This document shows, piece after piece, positions 20,615-31,428 of a stretch of 32,038 nucleotides of DNA. Below the pieces are notes generated by a model. That model was not told the DNA's origin. It saw only the letters and a list, made by a program, of their open reading frames with translations, and did not search any database. The position numbers and the translations under genes were made by a program. Source of the DNA: Desulfurococcaceae archaeon (GTDB lineage Archaea > Thermoproteota > Thermoprotei_A > Sulfolobales > NBVN01); assembly GCA_020833255.1 (NCBI GenBank), contig JAJHQR010000014.1, positions 1 to 32,038 of the forward strand, read 5' to 3'. Each line of letters opens with the position of its first letter. The stretch's first letter is position 1.

Positions 20615-20725
20615 TGGCGCCGCGGCCGGGATTTGAACCCGGGTCACGGGCTTTCCACGCATGCCCCCATCTCTTAGGAGGCACTCGACAGGCCCGCATA
20701 CTAGGCCGGGCTATACTACCGCGGC
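20615..20725 (-). tRNA. tRNA-Asp (GTC) with 33-nt intron
   Basis: The minus strand folds to a full cloverleaf. The acceptor stem GCCGCGG pairs with CCGCGGC, the discriminator is G, and CCA is encoded (20617-20615). The D arm is GTAT...AGTAT with GG in the loop. The anticodon stem CGGGC/GCCCG encloses loop CTGTCGA with anticodon GTC. The T arm is CCGGG-TTCAAAT-CCCGG. An intron interrupts the gene between positions 37 and 38, giving a mature length of 75 nt plus CCA. A TATA box lies 26-28 nt upstream. The G discriminator fits aspartate identity. Confidence 0.95.
20653..20685 (-). other. Canonical tRNA intron (37/38)
   Basis: This 33-nt insert follows G37. Its TGCCTCC pairs with GGGGGCA to form the intron hairpin, bringing the two splice sites together in the usual bulge-helix-bulge arrangement for the archaeal splicing endonuclease. 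The exact cut may shift by one or two bases because A residues flank the 3' junction. Confidence 0.85.
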
Positions 20726-27210: not shown

Positions 27211-29195
27211 TAAAACTCTCTGCCCTTCCTATACTCCTCAATTAAAGCGTTAATATCCTCGTACGTCAGACCATACCTCTTCTTCCTCCTTTCCTCAGAT
27301 AACTGAGGAACTAAAGCAATAACTCTGTCGAAGGAGTTTCTATCCGCGACCACGAGACATTCATTAACCTCGAAAACCTCCTCAGCCGAGACCGCAGGTA
27401 TTGACTCTTCCTCTATTAAGTGCTTACTCAAGCCTAGCGCCGTAGGAGGTAGGAGGAAGCCTAGTCTCGCACTCTCAACGAGTTCCCGCGCCTCCTTGAG
27501 AGCCTCAGTTACGTTATACGTGAACGCTACGAGAACCCCTCCCCTCTCATCCCTTAAGAACTTGAGGCACTTGTCGTTATATACGGGGACTAACACGTGT
27601 GTACCCGCGTAAAGCTTCATAAACAGATTCTCATAGTTGATAGCCTTAGACTTCAACACGCTATTCTCATTCTCCAATATCCTCAAACGTGCTTCAAGAT
27701 TCCTCACCCTCTGCATAAGCTCACTCACTTTCCTATCCTTAAGAACCCTCTCATTAAGTTCCGACGTCACAGCATCTAAACGCGAGGAGAGCTCGCGTAC
27801 CGCGTTCTCCAACTCAAGAACTCTTTGCTTGTAGAATTCTTTCTCCCTCTCAAGAACGCTCACCCTCTCCTTAAGCGCTTCCTCCACCCTAGGTGCTTGA
27901 GCCGTTACATCACTCTTCAAAACAACTGCGGATTCTTTCCTCTCCTCCCGAACATAATCGTTTATCACTTCCTCAATTATGGTGGAGAGATCCTCGTTCA
28001 TCAATACCTTGACCTTATACCTCTGTAAATTCACGTCGTAGAACCCCATCTCCCTCAGCTTGTAAGACAGCTTATCCAGCTTTTCCTGAAATTCCCCGTA
28101 AGCCTTAAGCGCGGCTGCTAAAGCGTCTCTCTCATGCGTGTTCTTAACATCTATTGACGGATGACGCTTAACGAACTCGGATACAGCCACCTCCTTCTCC
28201 GCGGTACTCAACGATTTCTGAGGCACGTACAGCAACGCGCCGAGAGACGCAGCCAACTTCCTGCACATCTCCGGCGGGGGGTTCTTATCAGTCGCTACCA
28301 GTACTGGACGACCTAACTTAACGAGCAGGTTATGTATGTCCCCCCTATCAAGCTCCCTCCCCGACGTAACGTACACTAAATTCATGTCTAGGTCTAGAAC
28401 CGCTAAACCGACATTAACTCCCGGATCATACCCTACTATCAAGTAACGCTCCTCATCACCCCTCCTCAACTCTACGAGATCGCTGAGGAAGCTCTTGTTG
28501 AGAACAGGCTTAATCTTAACTACCACGTCCTTACCCTTAACCTGTTTTATGAGGCCGTAAAGCCTCTCACGCGGCGTGTAGACGGTGAAGAGAGCTTTCT
28601 CAACACCTCCGTCGCTCTTCCTGACCGTGAGGTCGTAATCTATGTTATTCTTGTCTAAAACCTCCTTTATCTTCCTGACGTGTCTGGTGACTATAGCGCG
28701 GAGATTCCTGACGTACTTCTCCGTCCTAGAACCCCCGGCTATCCCGGAACGCCCTGGATACACGTAGATCTTGACCTTATCCTCGAAAACCCTTAACCTA
28801 CTACCGTAACCTTCCCTCGCTAAGTACGCTATGACTAGGGCGGTCTTGAAAGGATCTAGCTTACTTTTGTCGCCGACGAGCCCTGCCTTCTCAGCTAGGT
28901 ACTGAATCTTGACAGGCTTGCCTGACTCAACGTTAACCTGAACTAACGTGATGCTTGGGGGGAGCATCTTAATTACTCTGAGTAAGTCCCTCTTACTACC
29001 GCCTAGCTCGAGCACGTTATCCGTGGCTAGGACGTCAGGTTTTATCTCCCAGAGCTCCCTAATCAAGCCGCCGAAGCTAACCTCCTTAACCGCTTTAAGA
29101 ACCTCACCCTCTAGAAACACCATCGCGTACCTAAACTGTGATAAGTCGCTACCAGACCTGATTATATCAATACCTACTATCTTGTCAGAACTCAT
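27210..29195 (-). CDS. DUF460 protein with two RNase H-like domains and coiled coil
   Basis: A 661-residue protein of the archaeal DUF460 family. Residues 1-135 resemble an RNase H/RuvC-like fold: VGIDIIRSG at the start and a C-terminal DPFKTALVIAYLAREGYG helix. A second, clearer copy spans about 250-370 with VGYDPGVNVGLAVLD (254-268), the KSLSTAEKEVAV loop, and HERDALAAALKAY (354-366) carrying the terminal acidic residue. A long charged coiled coil runs from about 435 to 530, and an alpha/beta tail ends the protein. Its start overlaps the end of rio2 by 11 bases. The nuclease fold suggests action on nucleic acid; the substrate is not known. Confidence 0.8.
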   Translation of the reverse strand: MSSDKIVGIDIIRSGSDLSQFRYAMVFLEGEVLKAVKEVSFGGLIRELWEIKPDVLATDNVLELGGSKRDLLRVIKMLPPSITLVQVNVESGKPVKIQYLAEKAGLVGDKSKLDPFKTALVIAYLAREGYGSRLRVFEDKVKIYVYPGRSGIAGGSRTEKYVRNLRAIVTRHVRKIKEVLDKNNIDYDLTVRKSDGGVEKALFTVYTPRERLYGLIKQVKGKDVVVKIKPVLNKSFLSDLVELRRGDEERYLIVGYDPGVNVGLAVLDLDMNLVYVTSGRELDRGDIHNLLVKLGRPVLVATDKNPPPEMCRKLAASLGALLYVPQKSLSTAEKEVAVSEFVKRHPSIDVKNTHERDALAAALKAYGEFQEKLDKLSYKLREMGFYDVNLQRYKVKVLMNEDLSTIIEEVINDYVREERKESAVVLKSDVTAQAPRVEEALKERVSVLEREKEFYKQRVLELENAVRELSSRLDAVTSELNERVLKDRKVSELMQRVRNLEARLRILENENSVLKSKAINYENLFMKLYAGTHVLVPVYNDKCLKFLRDERGGVLVAFTYNVTEALKEARELVESARLGFLLPPTALGLSKHLIEEESIPAVSAEEVFEVNECLVVADRNSFDRVIALVPQLSEERRKKRYGLTYEDINALIEEYRKGREF

Positions 29196-30084
29196 CTCTC
29201 AAACCCTTCACAAACTCTAGGCAGTCACCCACTCTCTTCTCCAAGTTATAACGTTCTTTGAAGAATTTAACCATGTAAGAAACGTCTCTGAGGAGGAGTT
29301 CCTCGGCTCTAGGATCGTCTTTATAGACGTACTGAGGCCAGTCAATAATATAGGGCTTCTCACCCTCATCAACACTAACCAACACGTTATACTCGCTTAA
29401 GTCTCCGTGGATAATGCCTAAATACACGTAAGCACTTCTCAGAGCCATCATTACACACCTCAGAATATTCTCAGGCGCTAAAGCCTCTCTATACCTATAT
29501 AATTCGACACCGCTCACGTAATCCATGACTACAGAGTGTTCTACGTGAGCGTAGACTCTTGGGACGAACTGCGTGTAGTCGCTTAACCTACTCAAGACCT
29601 CGTACTCCTTACTCGCAGCACTTCTCGAGTGCGTGAACCACCTACCCTCATCTAAGGAGTAAGTCCTCACCCTCTTAACTTTCTGGAAGCTAATACGCCC
29701 TATCTTATAGAACTTGACCGCGACTACCCTACCCTCAGGGGTCTTAGCGATGTAGATCTCGCTCTCCTTCCCAACCCCGACTCTAGTCCCTATATAACCT
29801 AACACCCCGGAATCACTTAACTTCTTAAGAGCTACCAGGTCTAGTCCTAGGTAGGTAAGCCTGAAGCTTTGAGTGACTTTATGCTTAACAACCGCTTTCA
29901 CATCCATTAACTCGCGGAGAGATTTAATCACGCGTGAGGGAGGAAGCTTAGCGACTTTCTCGATCAATTCTAAAGGTACGTACTCATACTTAGTACTCAT
30001 GCTATTAAGCACCGTCAATATCTTAAAGCTTTCATCACTCAGATCTCTGTAAATCAGCGCTAACTCCTTCAGCCCCTTAACCAC
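29185..30084 (-). CDS. rio2: Atypical protein kinase RIO2
   Basis: A 299-residue RIO2 kinase/ATPase needed for final maturation of the small ribosomal subunit. The N-terminal winged-helix domain (about 1-90) is characteristic of RIO2 and absent from RIO1. The ATP loop is VGVGKESEIY (102-111), the lysine strand VVAVKFYKIG follows, the catalytic loop is HGDLSEYN (226-233) and the metal-binding motif is IIDWPQ (247-252). The start is GTG 30084, directly after the box C/D RNA at 30091-30149. It overlaps the DUF460 gene by 11 bases, so the two share an mRNA. Confidence 0.94.
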   Translation of the reverse strand: MVKGLKELALIYRDLSDESFKILTVLNSMSTKYEYVPLELIEKVAKLPPSRVIKSLRELMDVKAVVKHKVTQSFRLTYLGLDLVALKKLSDSGVLGYIGTRVGVGKESEIYIAKTPEGRVVAVKFYKIGRISFQKVKRVRTYSLDEGRWFTHSRSAASKEYEVLSRLSDYTQFVPRVYAHVEHSVVMDYVSGVELYRYREALAPENILRCVMMALRSAYVYLGIIHGDLSEYNVLVSVDEGEKPYIIDWPQYVYKDDPRAEELLLRDVSYMVKFFKERYNLEKRVGDCLEFVKGLRDEF

Positions 30085-30090
30085 CCCCTA

Positions 30091-30149
30091 GAAGCTCAGG
30101 TAACGAACCTTACATCACTGCTCAGACCCGGGTTCACTCATCACTTCCA
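30091..30149 (-). ncRNA. Box C/D guide sRNA
   Basis: On the minus strand the order is: box C GTGATGA (30144-30138), 12-nt guide GTGAACCCGGGT, box D' CTGA (30125-30122), spacer GCA, box C' GTGATGT (30118-30112), 12-nt guide AAGGTTCGTTAC, box D CTGA (30099-30096). All four boxes, both guide lengths and the 3-nt D'-C' spacer are canonical for archaeal dual guides that direct 2'-O-methylation. A short GAA/TTC end pairing is possible. The D' guide is complementary over 11 of 12 bases to the T-arm of tRNA-Asp in this window, and the N+5 rule points to the G at tRNA position 51. The D guide target is not found here. Confidence 0.9.
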
Positions 30150-30170: not shown

Positions 30171-30177
30171 TAATAAT
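30171..30177 (-). promoter_or_regulatory. TATA box for C/D sRNA-rio2 transcript
   Basis: The minus strand reads TTATTAA, centred 26 nt before position 30148. That is exactly where the sRNA begins, so the sRNA would form the 5' end of the rio2 mRNA. Confidence 0.45.
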
Positions 30178-31428
30178 TTAAAATAGCATGACCTTACCGC
30201 TCAGTACCTCGTGCGTGATCTTAGTTACGTTTTCCAGCTCTTCATTAACTATCTCAGTAACGTCGGATTTGATGGCGTTGAAAGCCTCTTTCTGAGCAGG
30301 TATTAGCCTTACTAAAGCCATCTGAGGATCGTCTATCGGGTGACCTATCCTGGAAAGAAGCTCTACGTAAACCTCCTTAACCTTAGGGACCTCGTTAATT
30401 ATCCTCACAGCTATCTTATTAGCGAGCACGTTGTATATCTTGCCAACATGGGTCACCGCGTTCTTACCGGCAGTAGCTTCTAAACTCATAGGCCTCATAG
30501 GAGTTATTAAACCGTTAACCCTGTTCCCGCGGCCAGTCATCCCATCATCGCCGTGCTCTGCGGAAGTCCCTGTGACCGTTATGTACACAGAGTTTTTCTC
30601 AGGGATGTCAGCGCTGTTAACGAAGACCTTAATATCGTACTTACGTGTTTCATCAATCCTAGATAATTCCCTAACCACGTAATCCTCAACCCTATTCGTT
30701 AACTCTTCCTTAACGGATAGGTAATGGCTTAAGTCATTTATTAAGTGTGATATCATCGCTGCAGCGACTGTGAGCCTCACCTCATTCCCTACCCTGAGAC
30801 CCATAACCTTAATATCTTCCCCGACTTCAGGGAGCTTCTCCTTAAACTCACGTGAGTTTAAGTATCTCTCAACACCTAAGACCACGGTCTCCAGAGGGGT
30901 TAACGGCGCGTAGCTAACCCCTATGCTGGTGTCGTTAGCTAGAGGTCTGCGCTTCTCTTTCAAACCTGTCTCGTACGTCTGAACCAAGTCTACACTACCC
31001 GTTCTTATCATGTAATCAACGATCACGTGCCTCTCAGGATCTAAAAACCTGAAGTTTTGAGAGATCCACTTCTTAACAGCGTCAATCACTATGGTGCCGA
31101 CTGGGATCCTGTCTAAGCTACCGTTACTTAAGCTCACGAACTCGGTAGCTCTCCCGGCGATCAGTATGTATATCGGGTGGAGGACCTCGCCACCACCAAA
31201 ACGAGGCTTTGACTGCCCGCCAACCACCAAAACCTTATCTACGTTGTGGTGTAAGATCATGTTATAGTTTTCTAGGTAGTATTTTGAGAGAGCGACGCTG
31301 GATACCTCGGAGGCCGCGTCAGCTATGTAGTCAGGATGCCCGAGCCCCTTCCTCTCAACAAGCTCTATCCTCCACTCACTAACTGGGGAGTAATCAGCTA
31401 GCTCAACCTCAATATTCCGGGACGTCAC
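30178..31428 (-). CDS. mat: S-adenosylmethionine synthetase (archaeal type)
   Basis: A 416-residue archaeal methionine adenosyltransferase that makes S-adenosylmethionine from methionine and ATP, a family distinct in sequence from bacterial Met[18 protein letters not shown] (26-42) is the signature near the start. [21 protein letters not shown] (60-80), [20 protein letters not shown] and [12 protein letters not shown] near the C-terminus are also conserved. The GTG start follows AGGTGAT by five bases, a strong ribosome-binding site. The product feeds methylations such as those by KsgA and the C/D RNP. Confidence 0.96.

Follow-up and report, generated by a model that had tools for sequence, protein, structure and literature searches.

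The window analyzed here, a stretch of 32,038 nucleotides of DNA from a hot-spring archaeon whose genome (1.33 Mb) is 99% complete, contains at positions 30149-30091 of the minus strand an archaeal box C/D sRNA with the order C box, D′ guide, D′ box, C′ box, D guide and D box. The sRNA begins 28 nt after the end of an S-adenosylmethionine (SAM) synthetase gene and is followed, after a further 6 nt, by the start codon of a Rio2 kinase gene; both genes have the orientation of the sRNA. The features of this region and of the predicted target gene are as follows (all on the minus strand):

30178..31428: archaeal SAM synthetase gene, upstream of the sRNA (Pfam PF01941, E=1e-167)
30171..30185: A/T-rich stretch TATTTTAAATTATTA resembling a TATA box, ~27 nt upstream of the sRNA (sequence only)
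30091..30149: whole sRNA (sequence, Rfam C/D models, sole pattern match in the window, kept in relatives)
30147-30144 with 30094-30091: possible terminal stem, GAAG pairing with CTTC (sequence)
30138..30144: C box GTGATGA (pattern scan and sequence)
30126..30137: D′ guide GTGAACCCGGGT, 12 nt, complement of the tRNA T-arm ACCCGGGTTCA (pairing; kept with variants in 25 family genomes)
30122..30125: D′ box CTGA (pattern scan and sequence)
30112..30118: C′ box GTGATGT (pattern scan and sequence)
30100..30111: D guide AAGGTTCGTTAC, 12 nt, orphan in the source genome (searches against rRNA, 5S and tRNAs)
30096..30099: D box CTGA (pattern scan and sequence)
29185..30084: Rio2 kinase gene, downstream of the sRNA (Pfam RIO1 and Rio2_N)
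20618..20725: intron-containing tRNA-Asp(GTC) gene, one of the predicted targets (pairing site ACCCGGGTTCA at 20644-20634; G51, the nucleotide predicted to be methylated, at 20640)

Architecture and setting of the sRNA

Read on the minus strand, the sRNA is TGGAA-GTGATGA-GTGAACCCGGGT-CTGA-GCA-GTGATGT-AAGGTTCGTTAC-CTGA-GCTTC, in which a RUGAUGA C box and a CUGA D box lie near the ends, the C′ and D′ boxes are internal and separated by a GCA spacer, and the two guides, each of 12 nt, are flush with the D′ and D boxes. Archaeal C/D guides are approximately 10–12 nt in length (PMC4644070). A preliminary description of this DNA, which named no strand for the sRNA, had called all of the boxes and both 12-nt guides canonical; all are present, but the C′ box has a final T in place of the consensus A and is therefore slightly off consensus. 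A scan for the C/D′/C′/D pattern matched the window at this place only, and 200 Markov random windows of equal composition yielded no match. Fifteen archaeal C/D models of Rfam align to 30149-30091 on the same strand at E < 1, the best being sR28 (RF01136; E = 2.9e-6) at 28.9 bits versus a gathering threshold of 39. The alignment to sR28 and related models extends over the whole length in boxes and spacing, yet none of the 15 reaches its gathering score, which would have assigned the RNA to a named Rfam C/D family. From the sequence itself we consider it confirmed that 30149-30091 is a canonical archaeal box C/D sRNA with a C′ box one base off consensus. As a free RNA its predicted fold was no more stable than those of shuffled sequences. 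A pairing between the two guides (GAACC/GGTTC) is present but unconvincing (p 0.01-0.94 versus shuffles). A plasmid DNA similarity search gave no match.

The TATA-like stretch TATTTTAAATTATTA is a possible promoter of the sRNA's own. In several relatives, genus g8 among them, no more than ~15 nt separate the C box from the SAM synthetase stop codon, and in G007 the two overlap, so that processing of the sRNA from the 3′ end of the SAM synthetase gene is also possible. The genes for Nop5 and fibrillarin are adjacent to each other in the source genome (Pfam). The sRNA is presumably expressed and assembled into an RNP.

Pairing of the guides with tRNA and rRNA

Targets were sought among 39 tRNA matches of the source genome and its 16S, 23S and 5S rRNAs. 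The anticodons given are ARAGORN assignments and are less certain for intron-bearing genes; at default settings ARAGORN found no tRNA in the window, as a consequence of the intron in the tRNA-Asp gene. The D′ guide is Watson-Crick complementary over 11 bp to ACCCGGGTTCA in tRNA-Asp(GTC), Glu(CTC) and Arg (TCG, GCG and CCG), and over 10 bp to eight more tRNAs [Lys (two), Gly(CCC), His, Thr(GGT) and three Ala genes]. The 11-bp match is exact and was equaled by one of 500 shuffled guides compared with all tRNAs found. The T-arm stretch that is paired reads A47-C48-C49-C50-G51-G52-G53-U54-U55-C56-A57, and counting five from the D′ box (the N+5 rule) leads to G51 in the T-stem, not to C50 or C56. 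At least nine uninterrupted Watson-Crick pairs spanning the N+5 position have been used as the criterion for a target (PMC4644070), and the five and eight tRNAs offer 11 and 10 such pairs, respectively. In rRNA, the best site for the D′ guide has 8 uninterrupted bp, a value that 48 of 150 shuffled guides equaled or beat, and 5S rRNA was rejected as a target, having six pairs only (ACCCGG).

These results support the preliminary description, which had proposed 11 base pairs between the D′ guide and the tRNA-Asp T-arm, G51 as the N+5 nucleotide, and action on several tRNAs. The tRNA-Asp gene, which it had placed at 20615-20725, spans 20618-20725 on the minus strand. A better match of the D′ guide in rRNA, which by that account would have counted against the proposal, was not found (8 bp in rRNA and 6 in 5S, versus 11 in tRNA). 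The second guide had been described as lacking a placeable match, and we likewise found no target for AAGGTTCGTTAC in the 16S, 23S, 5S or tRNAs found in the genome, the best being a run of ~6–7 Watson-Crick pairs. The D guide of other genera, GGGTCGGTGG, could pair with CCATCGACCC of 23S rRNA (10–11 pairs, one of them G:U), at a level that was matched by 12 to 21 of 150 shuffles and is within reach of chance; in genera g4, g7 and g8 the register or the sequence is different.

Conservation and variation among relatives

The SAM synthetase gene was found in 27 of 31 genomes of the family, and a C/D sRNA lies directly behind it in 25 of the 27, representing nine genera; it was not found at this position in two genomes of genus g3 (G006 and G015). 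The C and D′ boxes are nearly invariant among relatives, and the D′ guide is the better conserved of the two guides among the family genomes. In G004, G007, G010, G011, G017, G018 and others, Rio2 was not detected in the fetched flank and the sRNA is present, indicating that the sRNA tracks the SAM synthetase gene. Scanned against 84,980 species genomes, the D′ half of the sRNA gave nine matches, all to archaea of the source order, which were either relatives in the source family, Zestosphaera tikiterensis among the relatives sharing this half, or Metallosphaera/Aramenus. The latter have a version of the sRNA with a similar D′ guide in another gene context, and given this difference in context we regard common descent with the family sRNA as likely only. 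At the three Metallosphaera and Aramenus loci the sRNA overlaps or adjoins the 3′ end of another ORF of ~370-395 codons, apparently the same gene at all three.

Genome G050, of the same order and with a Metallosphaera-type sRNA, has the guide GTGAACCCCGGC, which forms 10 bp with TCCGGGGTTCA at six T-arm sites, the N+5 nucleotide being G51 as for the window sRNA. The window's version of the guide would be interrupted on the TCCGGGGTTCA T-arms of G050, and GTGAACCCCGGC would be interrupted on CCCGGG arms. It appears from these pairings that in the other lineage the guide suits a different subset of tRNAs with G51 still the target, guide and target differing together. In G048 the guide GCGAACCCGTGT makes nine Watson-Crick and two G:U pairs with GCGCGGGTTCG at the same N+5 position; the D′ and C′ boxes of this sRNA are degenerate and its gene context differs from that of the family. 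The guides of genus g10, AACCCGGGA, ending ACCCGGGA, form 9 bp with TCCCGGGTT of common T-arms, again with the same N+5 position.

Seven other genera of the family have a D′ guide that reads GAAACCGGGT or nearly so, which places an A opposite the invariant tRNA G53, leaving 6 + 4 bp around one mismatch. The guide base in question, seven from the D′ box, is A in these seven genera and C in g1 and g10. None of the true T-arms of G012 has a U opposite the guide A. T-arms reading CCGGTTTCA were considered as a family-wide perfect target of the A-bearing guide and are absent from 7 genomes, and the perfect complement of that guide, ACCCGGTTTC, is absent outside the sRNA locus in G007, G010 and G014 (56-86% complete). 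Either the mismatch with G53 is tolerated in the seven genera, or the guide is otherwise used there.

Proposed function and alternatives

We consider it probable, at odds of roughly three to one, that the RNA is a box C/D sRNA whose D′ guide directs 2′-O-methylation of G51 in a set of tRNAs, a reading directly supported by architecture, conservation, complementarity and the presence of fibrillarin and Nop5. The sRNA would assemble with L7Ae, Nop5 and fibrillarin, and the D′ guide would base-pair with positions 47-57, on the 5′ side of the T-arm, in tRNAs or pre-tRNAs, whereupon G51 would receive a 2′-O-methyl group; the predicted targets are Asp, Glu(CTC) and three Arg species, with Lys, Gly, His, Thr and Ala species as probable further ones. 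The likely effect would be a T-stem stiffened at high temperature. The T-stem is base-paired in the folded tRNA, so the sRNA would have to act on a tRNA precursor or on tRNA that is not folded. The assignment of G51, predicted by counting along the pairing, is well-supported, with the caveat that the G53 mismatch in seven related genera would weigh against it. We are doubtful of a broader proposal, in which sRNA-guided methylation of G51 would be lineage-wide in two archaeal families, with guides re-tuned to tRNA subsets, and most genera of one family would keep the base that mismatches G53, perhaps weakening the pairing to allow release and refolding of the tRNA.

That same mismatch, together with the potential pairing of GGGTCGGTGG with 23S rRNA, would be accounted for if the real conserved target were rRNA or another RNA and the tRNA match a by-product of a GC-rich guide. 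We consider this unlikely, as the window's D′ guide has no rRNA site of more than 8 uninterrupted bp (6 bp in 5S), and the absence of ACCCGGTTTC beyond the sRNA locus in the three partly complete genomes that were searched for it gives no sign of an overlooked perfect target common to the family. A role mainly as a tRNA-folding chaperone or antisense RNA, with no productive methylation, would also tolerate the G53 mismatch and hence the A kept in seven genera, and chaperone roles have been proposed for C/D sRNAs (PMC4644070); the N+5 region being perfectly paired by the guides of the source genus, of g10 and of the Sulfolobaceae type, and the near invariance of the C and D′ boxes, make it improbable. 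It is highly improbable that the element is instead a k-turn located in the leader of the Rio2 mRNA or at the 3′ end of SAM synthetase, bound by L7Ae to regulate these genes and guiding nothing: it does lie 6 nt ahead of the Rio2 start codon and L7Ae is described as binding k-turns in mRNAs (PMC5539422), but the sRNA occurs where Rio2 was not detected in the fetched flank, the guide between the boxes is conserved although a k-turn by itself would not require it, and the Metallosphaera/Aramenus and G048 versions sit in other gene contexts.

Guidance of G51 methylation would fit what is known of archaeal C/D sRNAs, among which tRNA-targeting members are established (PMC7994747, PMC4644070) and known guided positions of the T-arm include 50 and 56 (PMC7912444, PMC7668247). 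In Pyrobaculum, the coupling of a tRNA guide with an orphan guide is a described pattern (PMC7994747, citing Lui et al. 2018), and the families so described share with the window sRNA the box order, the guide length, and one guide for multiple tRNAs beside another that is target-less; they are set apart, by general description rather than family by family, in that position 51 was not found named for them. A C/D sRNA of Sulfolobus acidocaldarius, a related crenarchaeon, is predicted for C50 of tRNA-Gly(CCC) (PMC7668247), and so likewise for the T-stem and the neighboring nucleotide, whereas the window sRNA has 51 as its N+5 position and a wider set of tRNAs. The Cm56 guide of Pyrobaculum aerophilum (PMC7912444, PMC6313347) likewise sends fibrillarin to a T-arm sequence of many tRNAs, although its target is C56 of the loop and not G51; elsewhere Cm56 is made by the protein Trm56. 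Position 51 was not found named as a target in the available text of PMC7994747, PMC7912444 and PMC7668247, and Gm51 is absent from the main text on S. acidocaldarius tRNAs (PMC7668247). The sRNA described here is in other respects ordinary, if sound; it ties a conserved guide RNA, with one predicted modification, to a specific tRNA set in a little-studied group of archaea, and the mismatch kept in seven genera would bear on how far C/D RNPs tolerate mispairing near the methylation site.

Several rRNA genes encountered in this work are unusual. The source genome's own 16S rRNA gene (G000:C68:22500-30500) spans 2405 bases, ~900 above the usual length, and so probably contains introns, and the 23S gene of the relative G005 spans ~4500. 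The G026 and G004 assemblies have second 5S rRNA genes that are strongly unlike archaeal ones and bacterial-looking, which are probably assembly contamination.
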